Below are positions 3,478 to 64,000 of a DNA stretch of 64,000 nucleotides, one piece after another. Made by a program: the position numbers and the translations under genes. Each line of letters starts with the position of its first letter. The stretch's first letter is position 1. Below the pieces are notes generated by a model. It saw only the letters and a list, made by a program, of their open reading frames with translations. It did not search any database and had not been told where the DNA came from. The stretch comes from Paramacrobiotus metropolitanus (lineage: Eukaryota > Tardigrada > Eutardigrada > Parachela > Macrobiotidae): assembly GCF_019649055.1 (NCBI RefSeq), contig NW_026570289.1, positions 186,001 through 250,000 of the forward strand. Reading direction: 5' to 3'.

Positions 3478-3995
3478 TAATATAACGGAATATAATCTTA
3501 CGGAATTATAATATAACGATTACGGGCGATTTTCGCTTTAACACAGCTTGAGGCAGGGTTGACAGGCAAAAGCGCGTCGTATAAATGAATGTTTCCCAGT
3601 CCCGCCGCTCGTTATCTTACATTTTCGGCTTCTGAATTTGTAGTAAACTGCAATATTTCATCATTTGTGGTCCTTCGGACGGTAATCGTCAAGATCAAGA
3701 AGCAAAGAGCAGCAAATCAGCAGATCCATTGTGTCATAAGATTAGTCACAGGAAAAATCTCCGTCTTGGCAAAGATCCAGGCGATCACTAAGCCATAACC
3801 CTGCAGATTATGTAACAGAGAGCACGTTTGCCGGTTGTTATTTCATACAGAAACGACTCGCAAAAGTGTTTTCATCAACCGGCAAAAGCGTACGGCATAC
3901 GGTGCATTTGTTTGGACAGTTTTATCAACTGCAACCGCGCATTCCTCTGTGACACGGGCATGGTGTAAAATTTTTCCGGAATTTTAAATAAACGA

Positions 3996-4090
3996 AATGG
4001 CTATTCGCCCGGGACTCCGGGCGAGAAGCCAAATGGCTATTCGCCCGGGACTCCCGGGCGAGAAGCCACATGGCTATTCGCCCGGGTTTG
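3996..4090 (+). repeat. 36-bp GC-rich minisatellite, left array (about 2.5 units)
   Basis: The unit reads ATGGCTATTCGCCCGGGACT then CCGGGCGAGAAGCCAA. It contains a small palindrome (CGCCCGGG...CCCGGGCG). Because 36 is a multiple of three it creates an artificial open frame. Confidence 0.9.
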
Positions 4091-5191
4091 GACTTTCACC
4101 CCTTGCAGGTGGTATCATAATAGAAACAAAAGATCACAGACAGCGACGGCGAGTGACACTTTCCCGTGATCTGTCTGTTCCTTTTAAAGCAGTAACTAGG
4201 CCATCTTCCGTAATTTCTCCGTAAAACAATTCAAAGAACACAGACAAACAACATTTCTCACTTTCTTGCGATCAGTAACCACTGGCCAGTTAACAAAAGT
4301 GCCATCGAATAAGTTATTCGCTTCCTCAACACGCAAGCGGCATATTCATTTGGAATAAAATTACCTGCATTCAAATTGTCACTTTCGTTTGGTTGAAATT
4401 TTATCCAGGTTAATACTTATACCGCTTATACTTATACCGGTTAATACTTATAACGCCGCTTACAACGTTTTTTTACGGCTGCCGTTCACTGCAATTCCGT
4501 TTTTATTCCGCTAATCAAACACCGAGGTTAGTAAAAATGATACTGTATAAGCCGTTAGCGATTCCCGTCAAGTTTATACATGTACTTTTCCTTTTGAGTT
4601 TACTTTGTGTTATACTGCATTGACCGATGTCCATAAGACAGCAGTAATTTGAATCACAGGAAAAGCGGGTTGGCAGATAGGAAGGGGCGCTTTAAGTTGT
4701 TATGGCGGCAAGCACCTTAAAGGTGGCTGTAATAACATCTTGAGTGCCCTTTTGTTAAAGACGTAGGCAATGCACAAATTAAATCTAAATTATTTCTGCT
4801 AGATCGAAAAAAAGCTAAACACACAAAAGGCTATGTCGGTCACCGCTGTCGGACTGATGTTGTATTTACTATTAGCTAACCGGCTTACCCACTTTTTACT
4901 TTTTGTACTGTCGTTTATTTTGGTTTTTAAATTAATTGTTTATTTTTTGTAATCACCCTTCGATACTCATTACACACAGACCTTGAATGATCAAGTATTT
5001 CCGGCAGAGGGTGGAGCCTGTCTGTGTCAACTTATTTCTTTTTTGTGTTAGCCGTAATAACAGTGTTTTTACAATGGAATTGTTATTTCATATCGGCATT
5101 GTATGTACCCATGTTTACTTTTTTTCGTAGTAGCTTGTTTACGGCTTTGGCAATCACATTATTAGCAACATTTTCTATTAGTTATAAGTCT

Positions 5192-7816: not shown

Positions 7817-8063
7817 GGCGAATAGCCGTTTGGTTTCTTGCCCAGTATCGATCCCGCGGTATCGATCCCGGGCGAATAGCCCTTTGGCTTCTCGGCCGGG
7901 AGTCCCGGGCGAATAGCCGTTTGGCTTCTCGCCCGGGGTCCCGGGCAAATAGCCCTTTGGCTTCTCGCCCGGAGTCCCGGGCGAATAGCCGTTTGGCTTC
8001 TCGCCCGGGGTCCCGGGCGAATAGCCCTTTGGCTTCTCGCCCGGAGTCCCGGGCGAATAGCCG
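7817..8063 (-). repeat. 36-bp GC-rich minisatellite, right array (about 7 units, inverted)
   Basis: This is the reverse complement of the array at 3996-4090. Units alternate between GGAGTCC and GGGGTCC and between CCGTTTGG and CCCTTTGG variants, so a higher-order 72-bp period is visible. The two apparent minus-strand ORFs here are products of the repeat. Confidence 0.9.
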
Positions 8064-43069: not shown

Positions 43070-46000
43070 ATGTTCGGATTCCCGTTTCGACGAAACTGGG
43101 GAATAGCAAAATTCCGGCCGCCCTTTCCTTACACACTGGAAGAACCCATCGGCCATGGCGGACTGTCGCGGGCTGTCTACAAGGTCACCGACGAGAGTTC
43201 AGAAGAGACGTACGCGGTCAAGGCCATCCCGGTGATTTCCGGCACACCAGACGCTGAACTGCGTAAACATCTCCACGAATTCAAGACCATTGTCAAGCTC
43301 AGCGCGCGGCCCCACCGCAATGTCGTTCGATACTATTATTTCGATGTCGCACGGTGGGATGCTGGACCGGAAGTGCGACTGTTCATGGAATACTGCAACG
43401 GTAAAATTAGTAGTTCGGAGTATTTTATATTGCCGGCGAACAAAGCAGATAAATATGAAAAGAAAAAAAAATAAAAATATATAAAACACAGAGTGAAATA
43501 TAAATAAGTAGTTTCAGAACAAAATGAAAGCAAAGTAAAATAAAACTCCTTTTTAAACAAAATCGTGCTTTCCTGTTCTAATAATTCTGCGTCGTCTTTA
43601 GACAGTCTTTTGCTGATTTGCTGCTTAACAGGAACTAGTATAATAAGCAGCGGACGCGCAGTTAGGTCAACGACCGCCGTTCTTTTGTAGCGGCTACATG
43701 CGAAATTATACACGCAGTAGCATATTGCAACGAAAGTCATAATTTTATAGTATATAGTGAGTGGCGCTCATGGATTTGCATATTGATAAATAAATTACGT
43801 TTATAGTAAGTAAACAATTCGGTCACGCTACGGGCGTGGCAGCCGACTGCTGCAATAATGCAATGATACCGAACAACATTCAAAAGAACTGCCGCGAATT
43901 CGGTTATAATATGATCTCTGTAATTAGTCTCGTGTAGTGTATGTAGTACTCGTACAAAGATTGTACGAGTATCTCGTGAAATGGATAATGGCTTATGGCT
44001 AATGTGCCGTAGCAACGGTATTGTTGTTGTCCGTTATTGTTGCCATGTCTAGTGTTTAGTTGGTTGTTTGCTGCTATGTCCGCTCACCAAAAAATTTTAT
44101 GTAAAAGGCTCCTGCTTGTAGCGGACGTCATCACGCGTCCTAAGGCTGAGCGCACGTATCCGCGTATGCGTGCATATTATGCACACGTATGAAGACTTAG
44201 CGACTTTTTAAAACTGAAGCAATTCCAGTCCATTCTGCTTTCACAACATAACTGGAATCTAGAATATTCTGGCACCAGAAGTGAACTCGCATAGTTATGT
44301 GCCATAAGAAAATGAAAAAGCAATTACAACTGCTATTAGCTCTTGATATAAATAACAAAAGTGAACGTTTTTTCCTAGTCTTGCAATATTATTAAAACAA
44401 ACAGAATGCCACTGAAAAGTAATTCAATTCGTTTTATTCAGACAAATACATTCGGGTACCACAATCGTGGGTTTTTGCTGCCTCAAGGCAATACAATCTC
44501 AGGATATTATCATGTTCTTGGAATAATATGAAAAAAAAACTTTCAAGACGCAAGACCCATGGGTCGCGTTTAGTTCTAAAAAATCCAATAAGTTCTATAC
44601 ATGGCTGTTCTTTAACTGCAAGTCAATCTACAGGCCAAAGTGTAGACATTTTAATCCAAGCGTACCGCACAGTTTATCCCATAGTGAACTACATAGTTGA
44701 GCCCGCAGTTTATCTCGCAGTGAACCACGCAGTTAACCGCACAGTTCGTCCAGCAGTAAACCCCACAGTGTATTCCCGAGTTCTTTGCATAACGTTTTCC
44801 CTTGCAAGTCAATCCGTATTAAACCATACAATATGTTCTACATAACATCTCAGGATTTTTTATTTTATTTTGCAATATTTTTGTAGCAATATTTCTTGCA
44901 GTATTCTTTAAAACACTACCATTTTCAAACAAACATTTATATTAAAGTAGTTTTAAAACAATGATGATTTATTCACAATCACTTCTGCTGAGTATTTGCG
45001 CAACAACTGTGAGCAATTCGTAAACGCTATTATTAGGAACACTGGCAGGCGTGCAAAGTAAATTTCTTTCCGGCATGTTTGTTTCGGTAGTTCCTTCAAA
45101 GAAATCGAATTTACAGCATTTTGGCTAGTCATAAAAGTACTTGATTTATGATGTTTCGTTAATGTTTTGATCCCAATAATAATTCAGAAACTGTTTGCAG
45201 ATATAAATTCTATTGAAGTTTGTGCTTATAAAAAATTATATTGAATACTAAATGCAATAATTCAACTGTTATGAGGTTACTTATGTATTTATTTAACATT
45301 GCAGATCACACAGATCAAACGTAGAAACGCGAGTCGGCAACTGCATTAATCTGCATACAAACTTTAGTAAGTAGTTGTTTTGTTTGTAAAATTGTACAGC
45401 AAAATAAAATAAAAAAAGTTTGAGATTTTATGTGGAATATATTGTATTGTTTACTACGGATTGAATTGCACGCGAAAACGATATGCGAAGAACTCCGGAA
45501 TACACTGTGGGGTTTACTGTTGGAAGAACTGTGCGGTTAACTGTGTGGTTTACTGCGGGATAAACTGTGGGATCAACTATGTAGTTCACTATGGGATAAA
45601 CTATGCTGTACGCTGTGACTTAAATGGACTTATACACTTTGGCCTGTAGATTGCCTTGCCGTTAAAGAACAGCCATGTCTAGAATTTATTGGAATTTGTA
45701 AAATAAGCGACCAATGGATCTTGCCTTTTGAAAGTTTTCTTTAAATTATTCCAAGAACGTGACATTATCTTGAGTTTTTTATTATCTTGAGGCAGCTTGC
45801 AAAAACCCACGATGAGTTCGCAAAACTGTGGTACTCGAATGTATTTGTCTGCTTAAAAAAAATTGAATTGATTTTCAATGATATCCTGTTTGGTCTAATA
45901 ATGTTTCAGGACGAAGAAAACATGTTCACTTTTGTTAATTATATCATGAGCTAATAGCAGTTATAATTGCTTTTATGGCTCATAGCTGTGCGAGTTCACT

Positions 46001-47391
46001 TCTGGTGTCCGAATATTCTAGATTCCAGTTATGTTGTGAAAGCAGAATGGACTGGAATTGCTTCAGTTTTAAAAGTCGCTAAGTCTTCATACGTGTGCAT
46101 AATATGCACGCATACGCGGATACGTGCGCTCAGCCTTAGGACGCGTGATGACGTCCGCTACAAGCAGGAGCCTTTTACATATAATTTTTTGGTATGTCCG
46201 CTCGGGACAGCAGCAAACAACCAACTAAACACTAGACATGGCAACAATAACGGACAACAACAATACCGTTGCTACGGCACATTAGCCATAAGCCATTATC
46301 CATTTCACGAGATACTCGTACAATCTTTGTACGAGTACTACATACACTAGTGTAGTGTATGTAGTACTCCTACAAAGATTGTACGAGTATCTCGTACACT
46401 ACATCTCGCCAAAAAAAACTCAATTATAAAAACCCCAATTGCTACGAACAGGAATCGTCTGCACAGAACCGGGAAGTTTCTAAAAGTTCTAACAGTTTTG
46501 TGAAAAAATAAGTAGTTTAATTGGTTCCGCCCTTTTTTTTATCAAATTGAAAACGGCCTTGGTGCGTTTTGTAAGAAAATTCTAAGCCGTTTTTTATGAT
46601 TTATTAAGGCCTACATCTTTTAATCTCTGCAGTCAGAAATTTACGCGGAAATGTGAAGTATAAGGAGGATGGGCAGCTGCACGTTCAAATAAGTCTGACA
46701 AATTGCCTTTCATTTAGGTCACAACCTAGCAGGGAGAAATGAGTCATTAGCGGCTAGCAAGCAACGCTTGAAGGAGCACGACATCGTACGCGATTTGAAG
46801 GATATTTTGCGAGGTCTCCAGTACTTACACCGGAACGGAATCGTCCACCTGGATATCAAAGGAGGCAACATCCTCATCACGACAACCGGCGTGGTGAAAC
46901 TGGCTGACTTCGGTTTAATCACCAAAATACAAGGCGCCGTCACAGCGTCCGGCGAAGTCAACGGCGCCGCGGGCACCACAGTGTACATGGCACCGGAGCG
47001 CTTTTCCGGCGTATTCGGCCGTTGTGGTCGGGCCAGCGATGTATGGAGTGTAGGTTGTGTATTGCTGGAGATGCTGCACGGACATGCACCGCGTTTCTAC
47101 CGCCGGGAAAGCCGCGGCAAAATGATGCTGATGGTACGACTACCGGAGATCGAGGCAGCTCTCGCTACAGGAGAAAAACCTTGTTATTTTCACCCGGGGT
47201 CGAAGGAGGATCCCCAGAAACTGGGTCGGAAAGGATGCCATGATTCAAAGGAGTTTCTGCGTACTGGTAAAGACTTCCTGGATTCGTGCTTTCGATTAAC
47301 GGCAGCGGACCGCCCCACGGCGGCGGCTTTGCTACAACATCCGCTCTTAACGGTAAAGCGAGGTCCGTTCAATTTTTTTACTGCGACTTGA
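43070..47391 (+). CDS. Protein kinase, MAP3K/STE-like
   Basis: Exon 1 43070-43400 and exon 2 46733-47391 join across a 3332-bp intron (donor AACG|GTAAAA, acceptor CTAGCAG) to give 329 residues, essentially a bare kinase domain. Visible motifs: glycine loop IGHGGLSRAVYK, VAIK lysine in YAVKAI, hinge FMEYCNG at the exon join, catalytic loop HLDIKGGNIL, DFG in ADFGL, MAPE, DVWSVGCVLLEM and a final RPTAAALLQHPLL. KGGNIL resembles MEKK-type KGANIL. The catalytic loop is HLD rather than HRD, a non-RD type as in Wee1 and Mos, suggesting no need for activation-loop phosphorylation. The intron is mostly filled by a foldback element. The stop lies shortly before the next gene on the same strand. Confidence 0.82.
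44670..44777. repeat. 12-bp minisatellite, nine units, left foldback arm
   Basis: Units such as CAGTTTATCCCA, TAGTGAACTACA, CAGTGAACCACG and CAGTTCGTCCAG repeat with exact 12-bp period for 108 bp. The period is a multiple of three, which explains the repetitive ORF here (NHAVNRTVRPAVNPTV). Confidence 0.85.
45498..45620. repeat. 12-bp minisatellite, right foldback arm (inverted)
   Basis: Inverted counterpart of the left array, with units like AACTGTGGGATC and AACTATGGGATA-type words and one or two extra or missing units, so the arrays have diverged by unit gain or loss since the arms formed. Confidence 0.85.
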
Positions 47392-51519: not shown

Positions 51520-52660
51520 CTGCTGCGGTCCAGACCAAGAGATGGTCGCTGACGAAACACAGCTGCCGACGCCTGCCGTGACCGGGGCTACAGTTTCGTG
51601 AATTTTGGTCCAAGTGCCGTTAGAAATTTTCAGACCCTGTGGAGATGGTAATAAAGCACTTAAGTGAACCAGATGAGAAGACCGTACAGTCGCTGCTGCA
51701 CGGAATTTGTGGTGTTTTTGGACATTCTCGTGTAGCATTTTACTTCGTACTTAGCAACGGCGGTGTTAAGATTACTTACTTTTCGTCGTAATTTATACTC
51801 AGTTATCTTCGAGGTGGTTACCGTCAACGTGAACTCGTATAAAAAAACGTATGGTCTATGGTCACTAAAAATGCTCTGAACTGCGCAGAACTGTCGTTAA
51901 GAATTCTATATCACAATAAAAATCTGCTGTATCTGTAAGTATTTACGGTGTTATTCGTCATTATGCGTTTTTTGCTATTTAGGCGTCAATAAATTAAGTT
52001 TATAATTGAGCGAAAATTTTTGAACTTTTTATAACAGTCTAATGCTAGATCCAACTGTGATCCAGATACGGAGACCTAAACGGAATAGATCCCGTGGAGT
52101 GAGCTATGCGATAAGTATAGCGAACTACGCGGAATCGCGAAACGTCGCACCGCTAATAGCTGACTTTTAATAATATTGACAAATCTGCTCAACAGAAAAT
52201 CAACAATGATCGGCGCAGCTCGATCGTAAAGCGTGGAGCCCATTCAACAGCGTGCAACGCTGTGCAGCACGTGCTATGCCGCGCCCACTAACAAAACACA
52301 AGCCAATCAGAAGCGAGACACAACACAGGCCATAATCCAAAGGCGTAGCGCCTAGCGCCACTGACGTGAACGCTAGTGATCCCGGTCTCACATGCCTCTG
52401 GGGGGATGCCGAGCTCCTGTGAGGCTGGACACACTCCCGAATCCACGAGAAGACGACGGTCGCCGAGTGCCTGTGTGTGCTCAAAAACATCAATTTCTCT
52501 TAATCCATTTTATCACATCAATTCCGTAAAGGCACAATTCCATTTAATACAATGTGAAATAAAGAGATCCAATTATAAAAATACTATCAAATCATTAGAA
52601 CAGATCAACAGTAACAGATCAACAAAAGTATTAATCAAATTGTAGACTAGGATCCTCCAT
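51520..52660. other. Probable 3' flank or LTR region of the large retroelement; not resolved
   Basis: The 3' LTR of the minus-strand element should lie here or just to the right, but with the 5' LTR outside the window I could not define it. A GC-richer block at 52200-52500 stands out. No gene is recognised. Confidence 0.3.
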
Positions 52661-53201
52661 TTCTGACTCGCAAAGGTCACAGGTCCTGTCCACCGTTTTC
52701 CGCACTTTAATCCATTCCGCTCCGTTGAGCAACTTCGCGCATCCGTAATGCGACTTTCATCACAATCCGCTTTGAGAATCGGGTGCGTATCAAGTACGAC
52801 TTAGGAATACTGCTTCATCTTTGGAATATAGTGCGTATCGATTGTACGACTTCAAAATGAGATCCATAAAGGTCATGGAGGGACGTCAATGAAGACAAGC
52901 GTAGTTCGCTTCCTCCCTAGTAAAGGTCATCCTTTGTTAAGACAATCCGTTGAGATGTGCGACTCAATTTGGGTTAATGATCCCAAAGGTCATGCGACTT
53001 GAATTCTATTACGGTGACTCTGTTGGGCAATTGATGATCCCAAAGGTCATCCCACTCGTCAAAACTTCCGTTAAAGGTCATGGAGGGACTTAGCCAGTTT
53101 TCTTTAGCTTTCAAGCACTTCTTCGCTTGCCTCCCTGGTAAAATTTACGGTTTGACCTTTCTGTCGCACATCCAACTTCAGTACGCCTCGAGCGGCCAGA
53201 A

Positions 53202-53650
53202 TGCCGGCAAGTTTACCGTAGCATCTCTGATGGGGCCGGCTAGTTACCGCATTGAATTTACCCCATGAAATTTCCACATTTAATCTTTTACTCTTGTTCG
53301 CCGCCTGTGGCCAATGTTAATACGAGAAATCCGGCTCAATTACCGTAGTTTTTCTCGTTTCACCTTTAACACTGAATCGCTTAAGAAGAGTGCCGGCGCA
53401 GTTTACCGTAACAACTCTAATGAGGCCGACTGATTGCCGCATTAAGTTAACCTCATCAATATTCCACCTGTTGTCTTTCTCTTTTTCGCCGCTTGTGGCC
53501 CCGTTTCGTATTCAAGAGATCCGGCTTGATTACCGTTGTTTCTCTTGTGCATTTATAACACTGAGTCGCTTAGAGAGGAGAGCCGGCTAACTGCCGTAAC
53601 TACTCCCTTGGGGCCGGCTTTATAGACCGAATCAATTTCAACCCCAATAG
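53202..53650. repeat. Tandem repeat, about 190-bp unit, 2.4 copies
   Basis: Units start near 53202, 53392 and 53582: each has GCCGGC or GCCGGCT followed by (T)TTACCGTA, CTCTGATGGGGCCGGCT, CCGCATTGAATTTACCCC, TTCGCCGCYTGTGGCC and ATCCGGCTYRATTACCGT. Identity is about 75-80% by eye. It lies in the 3' non-coding region, between the last ORF and the site-rich segment. Confidence 0.75.
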
Positions 53651-53833
53651 ATACTCCACATGATTTCTTTTAGGCAATTCTGTGCTATAAACGCTGCAAA
53701 CAACAAATACACAAATACAGTTTATGTTAACATGTCACGTGTCACGTCCTTTATACAACACCATTTGCATCTTTGTGACGTACCGACAAATGCCGTAGAC
53801 GTCCTTTTAATAGTGTGATCCTAAAGGTCAACA

Positions 53834-55246
53834 CTATTCCATTTCATTTGAATCGCCCTCGTCATCTCTCGGCGGGCGTTTCTTAGCGCTTTCCGGTTGG
53901 TTTCGGTCGGAAGTTCGGTCAACTGGTTCCGTCGAGTCAACTTCCATGACCTTTGTCGGGTCAACTTCGCGCTGGCCACGACCTTTACCTTGGCGACTGC
54001 GCTTAACCGCCTCAAGTCGATGGCGTGCGTCATTTTCTTCGAGTCGCAGTCTTCGATTATCAGGGTCTTCCGCCAATCGACGCTGCACGTCGGCGAGATT
54101 ATCCCGAAGCTGTTGGTTTCGGATGCCGCGTCGTCCCATCTGGTTAGGCGCACGGTCTGGGCGACGGTCACTTTTCTTCACTAAGAATTCCTCAATGTAG
54201 GTTTCGATTCCGTCCACCGGTTCGACGTAGTCACTGCCCAGAGAATCTTTGATCTTATTAATCCTTTCTTCTACTTGGGATGCGTGGCGCTGTGTCAAGT
54301 TGCCCTTTTCCATTCGTGTCTTGCACTTTTTCAGCGCCTTGCGAGCCGTATGCGCTATGCTGATATGTTCCATCGGTTGTCCCAATTTAGCGACATGAGC
54401 TCGGAAGAACGGTGGAATGTCGTCTTTCATGGTATTAGACACCAATTGATTCTGTGTCTTGTAATGTGCCAGTCTCGCAGCAAAGACCTTTTGCCCCATC
54501 CTTTTTGCGGCATAGTCCTTAGGATCCACCTGTAGTCCTATCGACGCCCTTGCTGCAAGCAACTTGAAAGCTGGGTTCACATGTCGTAGAACAAACTGAG
54601 CCACGTATTCTTGGCGTTCGGGATAATCTCTGTAGTAGAACTGTGTCATCCCGATTGGGTCAGTTGTGTCCAGCGGTACATCCAATAAACTTAAATCCAC
54701 CAAACTATGTAGTCCATTCCGTCGAATAGGGAGATAACAGTCCCGTACCGAGTCGCGGTGGATGAACAACTGACGGAAAAGTCCTTGTTCCACTCCTTGT
54801 TTAATCTCTCTCGCATAACCCGAGTCAAGTAGGAATTGGCTCAACTGTCTCAGAATTGTGCCAATTTTGTTGGCTTCAACCGAATCCGGCTCAAGTCCAA
54901 AGTATCGACAAATTTCGACCGTTTGTTCATCAATATCAGTCGTATTATATTCCATGTCGATGGTATCCGGTTGTCGGTTATCGAATCTGGAGTTCTGTCG
55001 GTGATCAGCCCGGCGATGATTATCCGGTTCTCGTTGACCTTCTGGTTCCCGTCGCTCTCCTGACTCAGGCTGCGACGGTTCGTTACTCGCCGGTTGTTCC
55101 GGTTGAAGGTCGCTATCCAGAATTACATTTCGTCGATGGGTCACGTTCTCTTGAGACGTTTCCGCAATCGAACTAGTCCCTTCCATCGCATCGTCTTCTT
55201 GTACGACGCTCACAATTGGATCCACTACATGAACCATTGACTCCAC
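53834..55246 (-). CDS. Retroelement 3' ORF d: helical protein, unknown role
   Basis: A 470-residue ORF from ATG 55246. The first 110 residues are Glu/Pro/Arg/Asn-rich and disordered; residues about 115-330 are predicted mostly helical with many Leu and Arg (VEICRYFGLEPDSVEANK, LLDSGYAREIKQGVEQG, YPERQEYVAQFVLRHVNP); the last 130 are charged, with a basic patch (RRPDRAPNQMGRRGIR). No signal peptide or membrane helix, so it is not a typical Env. No CCHC knuckle. The shape (disordered N-terminus, helical core, basic tail) is compatible with a Gag-like protein in an unusual position, but I see no diagnostic motif. Confidence 0.55.
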   Translation of the reverse strand: MESMVHVVDPIVSVVQEDDAMEGTSSIAETSQENVTHRRNVILDSDLQPEQPASNEPSQPESGERREPEGQREPDNHRRADHRQNSRFDNRQPDTIDMEYNTTDIDEQTVEICRYFGLEPDSVEANKIGTILRQLSQFLLDSGYAREIKQGVEQGLFRQLFIHRDSVRDCYLPIRRNGLHSLVDLSLLDVPLDTTDPIGMTQFYYRDYPERQEYVAQFVLRHVNPAFKLLAARASIGLQVDPKDYAAKRMGQKVFAARLAHYKTQNQLVSNTMKDDIPPFFRAHVAKLGQPMEHISIAHTARKALKKCKTRMEKGNLTQRHASQVEERINKIKDSLGSDYVEPVDGIETYIEEFLVKKSDRRPDRAPNQMGRRGIRNQQLRDNLADVQRRLAEDPDNRRLRLEENDARHRLEAVKRSRQGKGRGQREVDPTKVMEVDSTEPVDRTSDRNQPESAKKRPPRDDEGDSNEME

Positions 55247-55830
55247 CCGCTGATACTTTGGGGGTGAATCTTCCCGTTCAGTGCTTGATGACCTTTACTT
55301 GCGCCCGAGTCAAAGGTCGCATAAAATGCAGCTCTCTGTTGCCATCTTTTATCCTGTGGGTCGGGTGTTCGGTTCCGCGTTTGTTCGCGTCTTTTGTCCC
55401 ATGACCTTTCAGGTGTTGACATTCTGACATTGCGATTCCGGAATGCGACTCCCATCGGCACCTGATGCCCTTCCTTTTCAGGTTCTGTACGGAATGTCTC
55501 CGCACGCCGTTTTTGTTCTCGTTCCCTTGTCGCTGCCAGAATCTTGGCTGTATCAATCTTCCGCTGTATGGTCATTTCAGTTATTTCATCTCCGTGGCGC
55601 ACCCATCCTCTTCCGCCACGGTAATCTCGGTCGCGGGAGCGTTCGCGTGACCTTTCAGTACGGTACTCACGTGTCCTTTCACGAGAGTGTTCACGTGACC
55701 TTTCACTCCGTCTTTCAGAAGTCCGTTCATGTTCACGTGAATGTCCGCGTGACCTTTCTCTATGCGGAGGCGACCGTGGCCGTATGAAGCCTTCATCCCG
55801 TTTGAAGCTTCTTGTCAGTTTCTTTTGGGC
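55225..55830 (-). CDS. Retroelement 3' ORF c: Arg/Ser/Glu-rich protein
   Basis: A frame open from about 55830 to 55225. Its first part is an RS/RE-like tract (HRERSRGHSREHERTSERRS and further RERSRDRD), largely created by repeats of GAAAGGTCACG at DNA level. The second part (from 55602, MRHGDEITEMTIQRK) is helical and charged. It overlaps the end of ORF b and the start of ORF d in other frames. It may be read by frameshifting from ORF b or be spliced; a true start was not identified. Confidence 0.4.
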   Translation of the reverse strand, partial: AQKKLTRSFKRDEGFIRPRSPPHRERSRGHSREHERTSERRSERSREHSRERTREYRTERSRERSRDRDYRGGRGWVRHGDEITEMTIQRKIDTAKILAATREREQKRRAETFRTEPEKEGHQVPMGVAFRNRNVRMSTPERSWDKRREQTRNRTPDPQDKRWQQRAAFYATFDSGASKGHQALNGKIHPQSISGWSQWFM

Positions 55831-56287
55831 TTATCGTTGGTGACCTTGCTCTTTTTCCACTCTTCGTGGCTCCGCTAGATGGTTCTGTAACCGAACTGGT
55901 CCGTCCACGTGTTGATCCTGCGGTCGAGCTGGCCCGTGACCTTTCTGCTCGTTCAGTTAATTCGGCATCAATCTTTCTCTTTGTTGCCAAAAGGTCACTG
56001 TCAGACATTTCATCCACCGAAGTGGCTTTTTCGACTAATGGCTTAGATGTTCCTGCGCTGCTGGTCGCTGGAATCGTTTTCTCTTCCGGAAATACTTTAA
56101 GGTATCTCAGAACCTTCTCGATAATCCGCGGCCACTGCCTGCCATGTACTGCCGGATGATATTGCCACATCGATGCAATTTTATCGCTAATTCTTTGCGC
56201 TTGACTTCTATCGCTTTTGTTTTCTCTTTCAACGCTGTGTGGCATGGTTTGATGACTGCCTCCAGGCTGATCAACTTTCCATACCAT
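55793..56287 (-). CDS. Retroelement 3' ORF b
   Basis: A 164-codon frame overlapping the end of ORF a by 180 bp in the -1 frame. After about residue 30 it reads as normal protein (RISDKIASMWQYHP, IIEKVLRYLKVFPEE) followed by a Ser/Thr/Arg-rich tail with ERAERSRASSTAG. It is probably the continuation of ORF a by frameshift or after an indel. Confidence 0.4.
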   Translation of the reverse strand: MVWKVDQPGGSHQTMPHSVERENKSDRSQAQRISDKIASMWQYHPAVHGRQWPRIIEKVLRYLKVFPEEKTIPATSSAGTSKPLVEKATSVDEMSDSDLLATKRKIDAELTERAERSRASSTAGSTRGRTSSVTEPSSGATKSGKRARSPTISPKETDKKLQTG

Positions 56288-57183
56288 CCATGTTCGTCTT
56301 CCACTCTCATGTGAATTCTGTAAAGGTCACGGCACATCCTGTTAAAGTCCTGAATGGCCGTTCCATCCGCTTCTGTCAACTCTTCTGCTTTGTCCACGAT
56401 TACGTTTAAACGCGCATCGTCCTCTCTGAGGTCCAAAGGGAGTTTCGGCGCGTACTCGTGTACTGAAGGTTCGCCTGGTGGCGTCAACCGTAACCCATCT
56501 GGTCCCGTTTCGTCCAAGTTAGGGCCCAGTGATGGCAATATGCCTCGCGGTCGTGGTGAATCGAACCGGTTTCCGCCTCGTCTTCCTCCTCTCTGTGGCG
56601 AGTTCCGGTGAGATCGTTGCGCTCCAAGTTGCTGCGGTGTTCTCATGCGAGGCGCTCCGATATCCGACAGTGACAAGCCTCCCGTCTCCGGAAAAGGCGG
56701 TAATATCGGAGATGACCTTTGTGATCGTGGTGGAGTTCCGCTGAATCCACCATGTCCCATAAATCGACTCGGTGTGGTCTGTTGCGGTGGCGGCATCAAC
56801 ATTCTTGCCGGTCCCATCATTACTTGTGGTGGTCCCATCGGTGGGGTATATGATCCTGGATACGGTTGATACGGGGCGCCCGTTACTTGTCCCGAATACT
56901 GGGTTCCGGCAGGTGAGCCGTGGTGCACCCAGCTAACCGTGTCCTGATAACTCGTCTGCTGTCCTGGATCGTGATACACGTAATATCCCTGGCCGCCATA
57001 GTAACCTCCTTGACTTGTTCCAGGTTCATTCTGAGCCGTTCCCACTGACGACGTCGATCCTTCACCATATGAGGTGTCATAACCGTATTCACCTTCCATT
57101 CTTATAGGTGTAGATGCTTTTAGTGGGTTTCCAATACTTTCCGAGTCTGAATTATCCGAGTTTTGTCGTTCCAATCTGTCCAT
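56107..57183 (-). CDS. Retroelement 3' ORF a: Gly/Pro/Tyr-rich N-terminus, helical C-terminus
   Basis: A 358-residue ORF starting MDRLERQNSDNSDSES. Residues 30-230 are low-complexity G/P/Q/Y/S-rich (GGYYGGQGYYVYHDPGQQ, PPMGPPQVMMGP) with RG-rich patches (RGGRRGGNRF), similar in composition to prion-like RNA-binding domains. Residues about 250-350 form charged helices (EELTEADGTAIQDFNRMC, EDEHGWYGKLISLEAVIK). It lies only 150 bp after the pol stop. Could be a structural or nucleic-acid-binding protein; no known domain recognised. Confidence 0.55.
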   Translation of the reverse strand: MDRLERQNSDNSDSESIGNPLKASTPIRMEGEYGYDTSYGEGSTSSVGTAQNEPGTSQGGYYGGQGYYVYHDPGQQTSYQDTVSWVHHGSPAGTQYSGQVTGAPYQPYPGSYTPPMGPPQVMMGPARMLMPPPQQTTPSRFMGHGGFSGTPPRSQRSSPILPPFPETGGLSLSDIGAPRMRTPQQLGAQRSHRNSPQRGGRRGGNRFDSPRPRGILPSLGPNLDETGPDGLRLTPPGEPSVHEYAPKLPLDLREDDARLNVIVDKAEELTEADGTAIQDFNRMCRDLYRIHMRVEDEHGWYGKLISLEAVIKPCHTALKEKTKAIEVKRKELAIKLHRCGNIIRQYMAGSGRGLSRRF

Positions 57184-57331
57184 TAACTGTGCTTACCTTC
57201 TATAAAACGAAACAATAAAGGTTAACTTTTTGCACAGTGGTGACCTTTCTTTTTCCTTTTCGACTCCTATTTTTAATTTATTGTGACCCCTTATTTATGT
57301 CTATGTGGTTATTTGTTCTCTCGTCCTTTAG

Positions 57332-60300
57332 TTATCCGATCAAGAAGTTCTTTCTCGGCTGCATCCTCAGGTTCGCCTTTTGGGTCAATAAGTCCGTAGG
57401 GGTCGGTTTCTTTTTCTTCTGTTTGGCTTTCCGCTCGTTAATTGCTTTCGCTATATCACGGCCCAATTGTTCAGCTTTTGATTTGACCGCTTCTATCTCC
57501 TCTTCTCTCTTTTTTATGAGGTCATTCTCATTACCGGTAACAGTGCGTGGTTCGAAAAAATTCGGGTCACGCTCTGACATCTCAGCGTCCGTACGCTGTT
57601 TCGAAAGGTCATCCTTATCTTCGGTAGCAGTGCGTGGTTCGAAAAAGGATTGTTGCAGGTCCTTTTTGGAAGTACGCTCTGGTACTTTAGAGGTCGGTTC
57701 GTTGTCTTGTTCCTGTGACCTTTCTGCCAAATTACCAGCCTCCGTGTTCAACTTGATTGTGACTGCTGTTTCGAAATCCTTATCCTCTTTCTTCTTTCTT
57801 CCTCTTTTCTTTGTAGATTTGTTTTCTTTTTCCATTTCAGGTAGCGGAGGTGGTTCGAAAAAAGATTCTTTTTGAGGAGTATGCTCTGCGCCCTTATCCA
57901 CTTTTTCCCTTTCAGGTAGCAGAGGTGGTTCGAAAAATTGATTGGTACCATTTTTCGAAGCAAGCTCGGCTTCTTCCGTTTCTTTTTCGTTCATCGTTCG
58001 TTGCGAATCTTTCTCGTCGGGTAATGGCGGATGCCACGGCTTTAACCGATCAATAGAAACCACTTTTAGATCCGCTTCCTTCTTCGGATTCTGCTCGATG
58101 ACCTCCGCTTCGTTTGTTCGCGGGAAGCTAAGAATTTTCCACACTTTGTCGTACTTTGACTTGAAATCCGACTGATTTTCTTTTTTTCCTTGTTTAGTAT
58201 CTTTTGGAAGTCGTATAAGTACCAAATCGCCCACCTTGAAATTCGGCTCCGATTTCTTCTTATTATAAATTTCCGCATTTTTCTCATATGCGTCTTTGAT
58301 GTTACATCTCGCCACTTCTTCGGCAAAGGTCAAGTTCTTTTTCATGGTCTCCACCCATTCGTCTGGAGTTCCGTAATCATCGGGTATATTCGTTTTTGTA
58401 ACCACATCTTCCGGCATTGTCATTTCTCTGCCGTGTAGCATATAGTATGCTGAATATCCCGTTGTGGCGTGCACGACTCTGTTCATCGCCGAAATAACAT
58501 ATGGGAGATACTTGTTAAACTTCCGCTCATTTCCCGCTTTTAGGTATTGCGCCAAGCCATCAGCAATCGTTTGCATCTGTCTTTCTACTTGGCCTTGACC
58601 TTCTGGATGATACGCCGTTCCAAATGTGTGTTTAATCTTAAACACATTGGTGACCTTTGTCAACACTTCGGCTGTGAAGTGCCGTCCACGATCCGTATGT
58701 AGGATGTGCGGTGCTCCGTGTACCAATATCACGTGCTTTACAAAGACTTTCGCGAATTCTTTAGCCGTTGCCGTCTTCATTGGTACCGCAATCACATATT
58801 TCGTCAGTTGATCAATAAACACCGCTATGTATTTGTATCCACGTTTCTTCGTTGGCAACAGCGGTCCCTTCAAGTCCGCGTAGACTCGGAAGAATGGGTG
58901 TCCAACCTTTATCTCCTGTAGTTTACCGGGTGGGCATTTCCTCGGTGTCTTGCGAAATTGGCATCCTTGGCAAGCAAGTATGTAATTCTTCACGTCAGTG
59001 CTCATTCTGTCCCAATAGTAGCGCAATCTTATCGCTGACAGAGTCTTTTCAAATCCCAAATGACCTGCTGCTTTCTCGTCGTGCAATGCGTGGATTATCG
59101 CTCTTCGCATTGACAACGGTACCACATATGACCTTTCAAGTCTCCCATTTTTATCCTTTACTCGGTACAGTATGCCGTTCCACAACTGGTAATGCACTTC
59201 AAATTTGGATCTCGTTTCGGCGTCTGGTAGATGTTCCAGCTCGTCTATTATCATCGCCAGATGAGGATCTTTCAGCTGTTTGTTTCGCAACTGCAAGTTT
59301 GAGTCATCTTCTTCTTCCTCATCACCTTGTAAGTTGACGATACGGACTGTCGCCGTACTCAGTTCGTTCCAATCCTTGATGACCTTGCATCGCGGTAATG
59401 GCTTATATCTCTTTTTCATCTGTTTTGGGAATCTCAACAGCTTGATCGGGCATTCGTTCAGTGCTTGTGTCACTTTATCCGTTTCCCAAAGGTCATCTCC
59501 TTTCTCCGCTGCTTTATCAAGTCCAGTGACCTTTCCATTATGAACTTCGGCCTCTGCTTCAAGTCCGGTGACCTTTAAGTCACTAACGGTGGGCAACCAA
59601 CTTTTTACACGATTCACATTAGCTTCTATTTCAGCCGACTCATTCGCCGTAGCTGAAGTGACCTTTAACCGTTTTTCTCGTTGTTCCGCCATCTGTAGGA
59701 ACAGCTGACCGATTTCGATTGCTGGTTCTTTCGTGTCAAATTCCTTTTTATAATCCTCGAAGTTTGGGATCTCATCGAATTCCTCTTCTTGACACGTCGG
59801 GCCTTCAATTGGCGCTCTTGATAACGCGTCCGCGTTGTCACAATATTTTCCCGGTTTGTATTCGATTTTAAATTGGTGACCTTGTAATGCCATTGCCCAT
59901 CTTGTCAGGCGTGGGTTCATTCCGACTTTATTCGTCTCTGACCTTAACAAATTGGTGAGCGCCTGATGATCCGTCCTTACGGTGAATTCGGCATAATCAA
60001 TGTACGGCTTGAATTTTCTGACAGCAAACACGACTGCCAGACATTCCCATTCCGTTACGCCGTAATTTCTCTCTGCTCCGTGTAAGACGCGGCTGGCGTA
60101 CGCGATCGGGTGACCTTCTTGAGATAGGACAGCACCGATTCCTTCTTTACTCGCGTCGCATTCGATTACGGTCGGCTTCGTCGGGTCAAACTTTGCTAAT
60201 ACAGGTCCTTCGCATAACAGCTGTTTCAGACTGTTAAATTCATCTTCGTGTACCTTCGTCCAGTCTTTCTTTACATGTTTATCCTGTCTCAGCAGTTCGT

Positions 60301-61199
60301 ACAAATGGCAAGTCTTCTGTGCATATCCCATTATGAACTTGCGGTAATAATTCGCCAGTCCGAGGAATGACCTCAATTGCCTTTCTGTTTGCGGTCGTTT
60401 GAATTCTTTAACTGCGGTGACCTTTTCAGGATCCATTCGAACTCCGTCTTCGCTGAGTATATGACCTAGGAATCCCATCTGTCTCATTCCAAATTCACAT
60501 TTCGTCGGTTTAATCGTAAATCCCGCTTCAACTAAACTCATTAAGACGTTTCTCAAGTTTTGCATGAAAATCGCCCAAGTTTTTCCGGCGAAGATAACGT
60601 CATCGATGTACCCGAAAACGCAACCCTTTCTTTTCGCTTTCGACAATACTTTGTCCATGCACAGTTGGAATGTTGCTGGCCCATTGCAAACTCCAAACGG
60701 CATACGTTTAAACCGATACATTCCATCTTGCGTGACAAAGGTCGTCTTATTGATTGACGCTGGATCCATTGGGATCTGCCAGAATCCACTTTGCAAGTCC
60801 ATTTTCCCGTAATATTTGTTGCCTGCACACGCGTCGAGCAATTCATCTGGATTCGGTAGCGGGTAATTATTCTTTCTCGTCAGCTTGTTAAGCATAATGT
60901 AATTGACACAGAATCTCGTCCCCATTGTTCCGTCACCATTTTTCTTTACTGCCAGCACGACTGGGAAACTCCACTCGGCGTCCGACGGCTCGATTACATC
61001 TTGTGCCAACATTTCTTCAATATGTTTTGTTATGAACTCACGGCCTGTCCAACTCGTTCTGGCCGGGTTGCATTTAACTGGTTTCGCGTCTCCCGTATCG
61101 ATTACATGAGTGACCCCTTCACGTCTCCATACGGTTTCTTTGATGTCGGTAAGACCTTCCAGAATTCCCAGAACGCGTTGTATACGTCGTTCTTCTGTT
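57332..61199 (-). CDS. Ty3/gypsy pol: reverse transcriptase, RNase H, integrase
   Basis: The frame opens at about 61199 and runs to 57332. In order: VTHVIDTGDAKPVKC (RT entry), RFCVNYIMLNKLT, KMDLQSGFWQIPM with motif A Asp, MPFGVCNGPATFQ, active site YIDDVIF, FLGLANYYRKFI; RNase H ECDASKEGIGAVLSQ and RTDHQALTNLL; integrase HHCC finger (HDEKAAGHLGF ... CQGC), then DLKGPL, HTDRGRHF and the Glu in HPEGQGQVER, the DDE triad. After the integrase comes a 230-residue tail with several FFEP motifs and basic stretches; no chromodomain. All catalytic residues are present, so the enzyme may be active. Relative to ORF1 it is in the -1 frame with about 95 nt overlap, and I see no canonical slippery heptamer. 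Confidence 0.9.
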
Positions 61200-63987
61200 C
61201 TTCAGTTAGGTCAGGTCCTAGTTTCAAATTCCCAATTATCTTTGTCAGTTCCGTTTTCGTTGTATCATCCACCTCTGGGTCCTCGAGTACGTTCTTTACT
61301 GTCCCAGCGTTGACCTTTACATTCTCCATATGTTCATACGGCTCAACGTAGCCGAGAAGCTGATTTTTCTTCACGATTCGGTATTTGCTACTATGATTCG
61401 CAATGACGATTTCAAAGTACTTTCCTCTGTGGTCCGTTACTCCTGCCAACGGTTGTACTTCAGTTTCTACTTGTGGGACCGGTGTGAACATCAGCTTGTT
61501 TTGAGCCGGTGCGTATTTTCCCATCTTGACCTTTACACGTGTGCAGTTTGACGGTTTCAACTTGATTCGTTGGTCGCTGTAGACTTTGATCACGTCTTTC
61601 GACATTCTGGCTTTTTCCACTTTCAATCTTCTGACTTTAATATCCTTTTCTTTTTCTTCATCTACTTCATCATCCTCATCCAAGTCCATTAAATCCTCTT
61701 GCTCCGAAAGGTCACTTACACCTGAATCTTCCGAAGTTGTTGAGTTATCACTTGAACTCGTCCACTCTGAATCCGAATTACTGCTCTCATATCCCTGTGC
61801 AGTGGCTTGACCTTTGTCAGCCTTTTCAAGTGGGCGCTCATCAACTCCTTCATCTTCCGATGAAAGGTCACTTTCGTTTTCTCGCGAATCGCTAAGTTTT
61901 TTCGCTTTCGAATTTTTGAGCAGGGGTTTGTCCCCTTCTTTTGCCTTTCGCCCGTTTCGTGCGGCTACTCTCGGGTGACTCCTCGCTACTCGAATTCTCG
62001 TTGGTGACCTTTCTGATTGATCGGAGTTTGACCTTTCTTCGTCCGATTTTGACTTTTCCAGTTCATTTATTTCTTCGGGGCTCGTTAATGGCTTTTCGGT
62101 CAACTCGACCGGCGGACATTCCTCACCGTTATCGAGTGACCTTTCCCCGTTTTTTGCCTCAGTTACTGGGTTTTGTTGTTCGTTCGATATCCTTTCAACT
62201 TCCTCTTTAAACCTTTTCCACATTTCACCTCTGTCCGTTAACATTTGCGCAATATCGAAAGCCGACTTTGAACTTTCTTCTGTTTCATTCGATTGTCCTT
62301 CGGCTATCTCTTTAACTGGTTCCTCTTTCTCTGCTTCTTTGACAGTCCCTTTATTGGTTTGATCCTGTTGAACTGTTTCGTAACCTTTAGGTCGTTTAGG
62401 ACCAACGAAAATGCAGTTTGCCATCAGTTCTTCGGTGACCCATTCATCATTCGGAATCGTTTCATACATGCACCATGTATCGCCACCTCGTTCTGGGTAG
62501 TCCACTCCATCTGGATCTGGTGCAAAGGTCACCTTTTTCTTTTGCATCAGTCCCGGTGACCTTCTTCTCCGGGTTACTTGTAATTCTCTCATGTCTTTGA
62601 CATCAAATGTGGGAATTTCTCTTTCAAATTTATCCCAGTATTTCTCGAATGCTTTTTCGTTTCCCTCTTTTAACGCGTTGTAGTACACTTCAAGTGATTC
62701 GTAGACAGGTGTACCAAGTCCTGCCGGGAAGATGATCGTTCTCCCTTCACCTTTATACATGTGGTTCACACGGAAGTCCCAGAAAAGATCAACTCTCGCT
62801 TCTTCCCACATTTCTCCTTCCTCGGTCATTTCTTCTATCTCTCGTTCAAATCTCCTTTCTGTTGCTACCGGATCGAGAGGATCTTGGATTCCTTTCTCCA
62901 CACGTTGCAACCAATGGTTCAGCCATCTGCCTCTTCCAATTATGAAACTTTCCACACATGACAACCACGTTCGATATCTATTCCAATGATACCGTTCGAT
63001 GTGTGGTTTCCACATTTCGTTTGTCCGCATGATGCTTTTCGCTTTCTTTTGGGCATGACCTTTAAGGTCTGCTAATGCGGCATTACATCTTGGCCATTCT
63101 GAAAGGTCATCTTGGGAGGCATTTTCACAACATTCCGTGCATTCCCATTGTGGTTGCACTCTGCACGGATCCTCAAAGTAACCGTGGTGACAACTCCCGG
63201 CTCGTTCTTCTGGAGTTAATGTCCTTTGACTCGCTTCAGTTTTAACCTGTTCCTGTACTGTGGTAACTTCCTCACATTCGATTGGAGTCACGCTTTTATC
63301 CTCAGAGGATATTTCAATGACCTCTGGTTCTTTTTCTGTTCGGTGACTTTTCAATTGTTCGAGTGCCTTGTCGCGGATTTCGCTTGTAAACATCTGTTCC
63401 TCTTCAACTATTCGTTTAAAAACTCGTAACCTTTCACTCTTTTTATCCTTCCCCACTTTAGCCGTCTTTATTTCCAGTGCCTCTGGTACTGGGATAGGCT
63501 TTGCCCACTCCATGTCTGGCACAAGAGATTGTTTCGCTGCAACTGCCGCTTCTTTCTGTGTGGCAATTATCTCTTCAATCATTGGTGACCTTTCAATCGT
63601 TGGTGGCCTTTGAGAGTCACGTTCTGTTACTTCCTCTTTGGCTTTATCTGGTAGCCTTTCATTTTGGGTAGCAGATCGTGGTTCGAAAAGGTTCGAATTA
63701 CGCTCTCGTTCCAAGTTCTCAGTTGCTGGTGACCTTTCGTCTTCCTTTCCCAGTGCCTCTGGTACTGGGATAACTTTTCCAACTTTTCCATTTTCATTTT
63801 TCGTTTCCAGTGCCTCTGGTACTGGGATAATTTCTTCCTGCTGCACTTTTGTCATTCCCGGTGCCTCTGGTACTGGGATGACCTTTTCTCTTCCCTTCTG
63901 TGCCAGCAAGGTCCGATTTAATGTCTTTTCGATCTCCTGCTGAATCATTTGCAACTGCTCAAATGGTGACAATTCTTTTCGCGTCAT
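61102..63987 (-). CDS. Retroelement ORF1, upstream of pol (5' end may lie outside)
   Basis: A 961-residue frame that is still open at the window edge, so the start at 63987 is provisional. The N-terminal 170 residues carry four IPVPEA(L/P) motifs and LFEPRSAT; residues 270-500 form a more ordered, Trp-rich part with a Cys/His cluster (CHHGYFEDPC...CTECCENA) and WNRYRTWLSCVESF; then a long acidic, Ser-rich tract (DLMDLDEDDEVDEEKEKD). The last 150 residues (RIKLKPSNCTRVKV, NHSSKYRIVKKNQLLGYVEP, DLTEEQKNDVYNAF) match the linker that normally lies between protease and RT in Ty3/gypsy. No D(S/T)G protease motif and no CCHC knuckle is visible. Role inferred as Gag or Gag-Pro. Confidence 0.6.
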   Translation of the reverse strand: MTRKELSPFEQLQMIQQEIEKTLNRTLLAQKGREKVIPVPEAPGMTKVQQEEIIPVPEALETKNENGKVGKVIPVPEALGKEDERSPATENLERERNSNLFEPRSATQNERLPDKAKEEVTERDSQRPPTIERSPMIEEIIATQKEAAVAAKQSLVPDMEWAKPIPVPEALEIKTAKVGKDKKSERLRVFKRIVEEEQMFTSEIRDKALEQLKSHRTEKEPEVIEISSEDKSVTPIECEEVTTVQEQVKTEASQRTLTPEERAGSCHHGYFEDPCRVQPQWECTECCENASQDDLSEWPRCNAALADLKGHAQKKAKSIMRTNEMWKPHIERYHWNRYRTWLSCVESFIIGRGRWLNHWLQRVEKGIQDPLDPVATERRFEREIEEMTEEGEMWEEARVDLFWDFRVNHMYKGEGRTIIFPAGLGTPVYESLEVYYNALKEGNEKAFEKYWDKFEREIPTFDVKDMRELQVTRRRRSPGLMQKKKVTFAPDPDGVDYPERGGDTWCMYETIPNDEWVTEELMANCIFVGPKRPKGYETVQQDQTNKGTVKEAEKEEPVKEIAEGQSNETEESSKSAFDIAQMLTDRGEMWKRFKEEVERISNEQQNPVTEAKNGERSLDNGEECPPVELTEKPLTSPEEINELEKSKSDEERSNSDQSERSPTRIRVARSHPRVAARNGRKAKEGDKPLLKNSKAKKLSDSRENESDLSSEDEGVDERPLEKADKGQATAQGYESSNSDSEWTSSSDNSTTSEDSGVSDLSEQEDLMDLDEDDEVDEEKEKDIKVRRLKVEKARMSKDVIKVYSDQRIKLKPSNCTRVKVKMGKYAPAQNKLMFTPVPQVETEVQPLAGVTDHRGKYFEIVIANHSSKYRIVKKNQLLGYVEPYEHMENVKVNAGTVKNVLEDPEVDDTTKTELTKIIGNLKLGPDLTEEQKNDVYNAFWEFWKVLPTSKKPYGDVKGSLM
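63474..63879 (-). repeat. Four copies of a 22-bp word in ORF1
   Basis: CCAGTGCCTCTGGTACTGGG followed by AT occurs at 63474, 63750 and 63807, and with one change at 63858. On the coding strand each encodes IPVPEAL or IPVPEAP. Conservation extends to silent positions, and the word has inverted ends (CCAGT/ACTGG). Spacing is irregular (276, 57 and 51 bp). Confidence 0.85.
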
Positions 63988-64000
63988 CTTTTTCTTTTCG

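Follow-up and report, generated by a model that had tools for sequence, protein, structure and literature searches.

To our knowledge, transposons with clustered sites for a protein keep those sites in non-coding DNA, and we know of little work on transposon control in tardigrades. The insulator of Drosophila gypsy has about a dozen Su(Hw) sites in one non-coding stretch, and VANDALs are DNA transposons. In Arabidopsis, the VANDAL21/VANC21 system provides sequence-specific anti-silencing (PMC5735166). Burro (>30 kb) and Ogre (16-25 kb) are giant Ty3/gypsy-like retrotransposons with extra coding regions, and the LTR makes up much of the length of Ogre (PMC6431247). The NBRE, the monomer response element of NR4A receptors, is the word AAAGGTCA (PMC4777543).

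Here we describe a retroelement of the tardigrade Paramacrobiotus metropolitanus that begins within a stretch of 64,000 nucleotides (the window) and is densely set with exact AAAGGTCA/TGACCTTT sites. Like the gypsy insulator, it is a case of an LTR retrotransposon with clustered sites, for a host DNA-binding protein there and for a putative reader here, but instead of about a dozen sites in one stretch it has ~90-100 over at least 18 kb. With VANDAL21 it shares a dense short word (YAGTATTAY there) almost confined to one kind of element, gain and loss of sites between related copies, and a single orientation in non-coding arrays (PMC5735166). It differs in being a retrotransposon. VANDAL motifs occur mostly in tandem repeats outside genes, vary from one family to the next and are recognised by a protein of the element itself, whereas the majority of sites here are scattered through coding sequence, families A and B have one word, and any binder is putative, with weak domain hints for an element-encoded one. 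Giant size, gypsy-like affinity and extra coding regions recall Burro and Ogre, which have other hosts and other extra domains and for which the available part of PMC6431247 mentions no such carpet of sites. As the earlier note on this DNA had recognised, the word is identical to the published NBRE (PMC4777543), although its binding in a tardigrade is putative. A literature search turned up no publication describing the element or its sites. The element offers a testable case of dependence on a DNA-binding protein along a transposon body, and may preserve a natural record of the sequences that such a protein prefers in a tardigrade; across 30 copies, synonymous positions directly reveal constraint on an 8-bp word, as does the difference between mutations that were inherited and those that followed insertion.

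Results

Structurally, this is a giant LTR retrotransposon of the Ty3/gypsy type, lying on the minus strand (Table 1). The window copy extends from 52038 to 71793 in window coordinates (19.8 kb), running ~7.8 kb past the window end, and it begins at its LTR, not at 52660 as had been claimed. Both LTRs are present and flanked by the target site duplication ACAG, and because they are identical, this copy is young. Its ORF matches the Pfam models RVT_1, RT_RNaseH, Integrase_H2C2 and rve, and the best relative of pol among solved structures is Ty3 (7q5b, E 5.7e-85). A protease (PF13650) was found in the equivalent ORF of another copy (L032), so that the PR-RT-RH-IN order of Ty3/gypsy pol is seen, with the protease part taken from that copy. 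Upstream of pol, a gag-like ORF (L031:2209-3915) has a stretch of Cys and His judged by eye and no Pfam match, and TGGTAGCA, which adjoins the 5' LTR, looks by eye like a primer binding site. Scans for tRNAs and Rfam families gave no lead, and the 3' ORF region within the window had no Pfam match.

Table 1. Features of the window copy, in window coordinates unless a contig is named.
Feature	Position	Strand	Remarks
Left TSD copy, ACAG	52034..52037	.	Read from flanks; right copy next to the partner LTR, G000:C69:257794-257797
3' LTR, 355 bp	52038..52392	-	100% identical to G000:C69:257439-257793; no AAAGGTCA
Partner LTR, 355 bp	71439-71793 (G000:C69:257439-257793)		Beyond the window
3' non-coding region	52393..53833	-	8 sites, 7/8 antisense to the element
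Sites of 3' non-coding region	52672, 52868, 52922, 52985, 53042, 53073, 53823	+	
Site of 3' non-coding region	53153	-	
3' ORF region remnant, broken in this copy	53834..57183	-	10 sites
ORFs of the 3' remnant	53834-55246, 55225-55602, 55793-56287, 56107-57183	-	
Point of length difference	55809..55812	.	~4.6 kb absent relative to the C162 copy (L033:1541-6163), by BLAST
RT, RNase H and integrase ORF, 1226 aa	57332..61012	-	10 sites: 7 sense, 3 antisense
Linker part of pol polyprotein	61102..63987	-	14 sites; frame runs past the window, protease further upstream
Exact AAAGGTCA/TGACCTTT sites, window part of element	52672..63886	.	43 sites

The site count of the earlier note was reproduced, with 43 exact matches from 52672 on (seven of them within 52672-53160), only two elsewhere in the window (27438 and 37470), and all three frames represented among the coding sites. 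Its estimate that chance would supply fewer than one also held: for 52651-64000, a first-order Markov model gave a mean of 0.6 and a maximum of 4 in 200 runs, and a second-order model a mean of 0.83. Third- and fourth-order models, which themselves already learn much of the word, gave 4.4 and 21.5 (maximum 38 for the latter). None of 100 dinucleotide shuffles of the whole window reached its 45 matches, and words with one mismatch numbered 27, compared with ~11 when scaled from the remaining window. The full window copy has 88 sites (33 on the plus strand, 55 on the minus strand), 45 of them beyond the window (18 in L031, 27 in L034), and a 5' non-coding cluster in L034 packs 13 into ~510 bp. 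Its two non-coding ends hold 21 of the 88, with the remainder mostly in ORFs, and the LTRs of the two copies examined have none. A longer copy, of at least 24.4 kb, has 100 sites. Genome-wide, the word forms 2417 close pairs and its reversed form 48, and 81 among the 100 close pairs listed sit, by eye, in seven clusters; high word density is almost confined to certain elements.

Codon usage as the source of the excess was considered and dropped. In 9 of 11 ORFs (six from the window copy, two from the C162 copy and three from a related family), the observed count lay above all 500 codon-preserving shuffles, with 0.03-2.8 sites expected per ORF and 1-31 observed; the two that did not exceed their shuffles were 53834-55246, with a single site, and the gag-like ORF, with two. 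Coding sites are mostly in the sense orientation, a bias attributable to codon constraint, and the same shuffles predict antisense sites to be far rarer than sense ones. Nevertheless, the 11 coding pieces, some of which are homologous and so not all independent, contain 24 antisense sites against ~0.9 expected. Sites in the window copy's non-coding ends run almost uniformly antisense to the element (20 of 21).

Across copies, the word is under constraint at the DNA level. We aligned the RT-IN region of 30 of the 38 copies found and analysed eight sites, which were identical in 94% of copies compared with 53% for neighbouring words (0/20,000 resamples), although one of the eight was retained in just 22 of the 30. 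When sites were picked in one copy and scored in the others, which could be done for 9 of 10 sites, the score was 0.93 versus 0.36-0.42, for each of four copies. The synonymous minor fraction was 0.025 within sites (22 codons) and 0.198 nearby (229 codons; P 3.5e-8). Variants common to at least two of the 30 copies occupied 1 of 64 site columns as opposed to 215 of 702 neighbouring columns, whereas singleton variants, which arose after insertion, occupied 11 of 64 and 121 of 702, or 17% each. Control words chosen by the same majority rule as the sites had a mean of 14.1 shared-variant columns, against one for the sites. The upstream region, aligned for 28 of the 30 copies with seven sites, behaved in the same way, with shared variants in 2/56 site columns and 159/567 neighbouring columns (P 8.6e-6) and singletons in 10/56 and 92/567. 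Downstream, where 9 of the 30 copies and two sites were aligned, no site variant was seen, a result that was not significant. The RT-IN tests of identity, synonymous variation and shared variants excluded five positions in the gap-rich tail, with sites in 1, 1, 19, 13 and 6 copies. Selection seems to keep the word on transposing lineages, and its preservation hints that some protein has to be positioned along the DNA of the element. Shuffles and cross-copy conservation together support the earlier proposal that the DNA itself gains and retains sites wherever the protein can accommodate them.

Outside the word, position 9 is almost never G (0 of 88 sites in family A, 3 of 113 in two family B copies), with milder biases towards G at -1, C at 10 and A at 13. 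The probable protein-binding word is AAAGGTCA with C, T or A as the next letter. A tandem-repeat origin was considered and dropped since the flanking preferences are short and sites are strongly conserved across copies. Decay from one longer repeat, which the earlier note had named as a refutation, is thus not evident.

Family B, with 71% identity in pol, has the identical word, partly at common and partly at new positions. Of the 10 sites that the window copy has in RT-IN, 6 are exact at the same aligned place in family B, against an 8-mer background of 9.5%, and family B has seven sites of its own in this comparison; site positions thus turn over in part. L039/L044 proved to be a second family B copy (92% identical over a 7.5 kb BLAST alignment), so the argument from an unchanged word stands on two families. 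Family E is a closer relative (84% amino acid identity in pol) with 3 sites in 4.0 kb, and the carpet is therefore not indispensable. A motif switch in family E to ATAAAAGA, present four times in 2 kb, was rejected because 315 of 2000 codon shuffles matched or exceeded it (commonest 8-mer at least four times per shuffle); the next 2-kb piece has no ATAAAAGA. In the sister family P0011/P0006, compared at the protein level (58-64% amino acid identity), tripeptides that the word could encode number 3.9 and 3.0 per 1000 residues, versus 11.3 in P0001.

Discussion

On balance, we favor the view that the whole element body serves as a platform on which a sequence-specific DNA-binding protein, possibly an NR4A-like receptor of the host, sits and keeps the element active. 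One such protein would occupy the body in the chromosome, reading the word as double-stranded DNA, and would aid expression or escape from silencing. Site-rich copies would then leave more descendants, with point mutation creating and removing sites wherever the encoded proteins permit. A bolder form of this idea, which we regard as possible but hold only tentatively, is that a clade of giant tardigrade retrotransposons rewrote its coding sequence to carry ~100 nuclear-receptor-type sites, becoming coated and overriding silencing. Either a conserved receptor of the host or a chromatin protein encoded by the element could form the coat, and transcription-factor sites would have been selected through synonymous positions along the whole polyprotein.

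The site layout does not look like that of a simple promoter element, because the LTRs are motif-free and the sites extend across 18 kb, most of it coding. LTRs are nonetheless the expected place of a promoter, and the lack of sites there counts against a platform. Nor would a platform indifferent to orientation need the nearly uniform antisense arrangement of the non-coding ends.

The binder might instead be encoded by the element, as VANC binds VANDAL motifs and lifts silencing, an explanation we consider rather unlikely. Its appeal lies in a dense short word almost exclusive to certain elements, which is the logic of VANDAL21 (PMC5735166), and in the long extra 3' proteins, whose matches (17 and 10) are all named P. 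metropolitanus. One of these, P0144, has a linker-histone-like match (PF00538, E 2.4e-4, 21.7 bits against a cut-off of 22.4), and another starts with C-x2-C-x12-C-x2-C, present in the five rows, of 11 aligned, that extend this far. However, PF00538 was matched in one of four proteins of the P0144 kind (six scanned), with one piece at E 0.079; the linker-histone-like region, modelled with its last piece omitted, had a pLDDT of 36, and two of its pieces, searched against the PDB, gave no lead. Comparison by hhalign with four H1/H5 domains gave probabilities of 3-6%, while 20 column shuffles for each domain gave at most 1.1%. For the model of the Cys-pair protein, Foldseek returned no PDB match at E 0.001. 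Furthermore, families A and B have one and the same word, whereas VANC motifs differ by family.

A role of the word in RNA, in packaging, stability or translation, would draw on the non-random orientation of the sites, but we find it improbable: the sense bias of coding sites is explained by codon constraint, one transcript has both orientations, antisense coding sites far exceed expectation, and the antisense site at RT-IN alignment column 2687 is retained in 28 of 30 copies. It is more doubtful still that the sites serve the host, as a repression mark or in chromosome structure, and persist since copies are young. The identical LTRs of the window copy fit such youth, but the constraint is measured relative to neighboring bases on the same tree and holds between families 71% identical, and sites that harm the element would vanish from transposing lineages. 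Amplification of a short word or longer repeat without function, raised earlier as the plain alternative, survives in part, in that the 5' non-coding cluster looks locally duplicated and repeat families D2 and D9 display local duplication. As a general account it is very improbable, being already contradicted for the coding sites tested by synonymous constraint, by depletion of shared but not singleton variants, and by flanking preferences that are only short.

Our guess for the reader of the proposed platform is a host NR4A-type nuclear receptor, at a little under an even chance, because the word is exactly the NR4A monomer site and is unchanged between families ~29% apart in pol. The host also has receptors resembling ERR, FTZ-F1, COUP-TF and RXR, and NR4A is therefore not singled out. 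A study of C4 zinc-finger proteins in tardigrades mentions neither NR4A nor HR38 in its main text (PMC12941274). A candidate host NR4A gene lies at G000:C45:296812-297648, where two exons of the putative DNA-binding domain are 83% and 73% identical, the top two of 37 matches.

Distribution of AAAGGTCA along the retrotransposon

Counting exact matches to the 8-bp word AAAGGTCA in both orientations, we found 45 sites in the window, of which 43 lie at or after 52672; chance expectation for 52651-64000 is 0.6 (first-order Markov) or 0.8 (second-order Markov). An earlier note had reported this concentration from the sequence alone, and its counts and coordinates were borne out. The sites lie in a minus-strand copy of a giant Ty3/gypsy-type LTR retrotransposon (family A), whose reverse transcriptase-integrase (RT-IN) protein has Ty3 as its best solved relative and finds its top match among annotated proteins in Paramacrobiotus metropolitanus. 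The positions and complete identity of its LTRs indicate that this copy is ~19.8 kb long and young. A second copy, on contig C162, spans at least 24.4 kb to the contig end and includes ~4.6 kb of 3' ORF region missing from the window copy. At least 37 further copies, complete or partial, share 84-97% identity (counted by hand from 54 rows; 38 of 2517 candidates scored).

The window copy carries 88 sites and the C162 copy 100. Sites are sparsest in the gag-like ORF (1.2 per kb) and in RT-IN (2.7 per kb), and reach their greatest density, 5-10 per kb, in linkers and non-coding parts; coding sites use all three frames. In the window copy's two non-coding ends, 20 of 21 sites are antisense to the element; almost all such sites are antisense in both copies read (window 52393-53833 and extracted pieces L034:2028-2543, L036:193-940 and L035:1921-2328).

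Features of the window copy and other repeats in the window
Feature	Position	Sites	Remarks
LTRs	52038-52392 and C69:257439-257793 (window coordinate 71439-71793)	0	355 bp each, 100% identical, ACAG flanks
3' non-coding part		8	
Tandem repeat in 3' non-coding part	53198-53587		imperfect, ~190 bp, without AAAGGTCA
Broken 3' ORF region		10	
RT + RNase H + integrase (RT-IN) ORF	57332-61012	10	minus strand; domain matches
Protease and linker ORF		23	
Gag-like ORF		2	
5' ORF		14	coiled-coil in appearance (by eye)
5' non-coding part		13	
Two short stretches		8	together
Inverted arms	44001-46283		at least ~880 bp each, 86% identical, ~525 bp spacer
Arrays of 36-37-bp units	3995-4086 and 7866-8062		common CCCGGGCGAATAGCC-like words

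Selection on the word

In an RT-IN alignment of 30 copies we scored eight sites, leaving out five further positions in the gap-rich tail, each present in 1 to 19 copies. The eight were identical in 94% of copies, compared with 53% for adjacent words, and synonymous variation was 0.025 inside sites against 0.198 nearby. The clearest test of selection is to separate inherited from post-landing mutations, taken as variants common to at least two copies and variants in a single copy. Of the 64 site columns, 1 carried a shared variant and 11 a single-copy variant; for the 702 columns next to them the figures were 215 and 121 (P 8e-9 for shared, P 1.0 for single-copy variants); columns are non-independent and copies related by ancestry, and neighbouring columns were used as control because they share the sites' tree. 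This combination of few shared and normal single-copy variants suggests that sites are free to mutate in landed copies, not in transposing lineages. The outcome was unchanged when sites were picked from one copy or control words by the same majority rule. The upstream region gave the same pattern (28 of 30 copies, 7 sites); the downstream region, with 2 scorable sites and 9 of 30 copies left after filtering, had no site variant and was not significant. The carpet of sites is genuine, and the constraint on it acts at the DNA level.

Two copies of the related family B, on contig C1, carry 4.8 (L040, L043) and 5.3 (L039, L044) sites per kb; they are 92% identical to each other and, over BLAST-aligned stretches, each ~74% identical to the window copy. 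The RT-IN ORFs of the two families share 71% identity; of the 10 A sites there, 6 recur exactly in B, compared with 9.5% for 8-mers generally. Two of the six sit in a poorly conserved linker where alignment is less certain; B has 7 RT-IN sites absent from A. Family E, closer to A than B is (pol 79% DNA, 84% protein identity), contains 3 sites, 1 in one piece and 2 in the other, over the 4.0 kb read. Among four aligned A/B-common sites in the compared piece, E has two in altered form and is missing the stretch that would contain the other two.

Candidate binders of the word

The carpet is best read as a platform for a putative DNA-binding protein that would aid the element. Directly after the word, G is absent from all 88 sites of the window copy and occurs at 1 of 55 and 2 of 58 sites of the two B copies. 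With all 201 sites taken together, G precedes the word (-1) in 87, C occupies position 10 in 93, and A occupies position 13 in 89; flank positions other than -1, 9, 10 and 13 are nearer background. PMC4777543 gives AAAGGTCA as the NR4A monomer site. Among 63 zinc-finger-C4 matches in the host genome is a two-exon match to the NR4A2 domain (83% and 73% identity, the top two of 37 rows), which together with the NR4A site makes a host receptor a plausible candidate binder. Alternatively, the putative binder may be encoded by the element itself: one 3' protein has a linker-histone-like match slightly below cut-off, and a Cys pair is conserved, but structure modelling of the 3' proteins gave no support. 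Searches with these proteins returned relatives all named as P. metropolitanus. The weak linker-histone-like match concerns L033:3422-5094, from the C162 copy, and protein P0144; the public proteome annotates such 3' proteins as genes of the host, one example being 'RNA-binding protein 25-like'.

The word elsewhere in the genome and other repeats

Genome-wide, single AAAGGTCA sites number 42,562 compared with 15,522 for the reversed word, and close same-orientation pairs 2417 compared with 48. Among 100 pairs listed, 81 fall by eye in seven C1 clusters, and the remaining pairs include those of a satellite-like stretch and of a probable DNA transposon's ends. The former (L041, G000:C1:565001-568500) has AAAGGTCATCCACCTTTC units and 10 sites, and comparison with pieces of the retroelement gave no match. 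In the latter (L042, also on C1), paired sites at 687-713 and 4784-4810, in opposite orientation with 4.1 kb between, are arranged like the terminal repeats of such an element; a comparable set lies at C1:2686083 and 2688826. Within the window, the inverted arms look like another mobile or inverted-repeat element; their comparison started at 44001, and the left arm may extend further.
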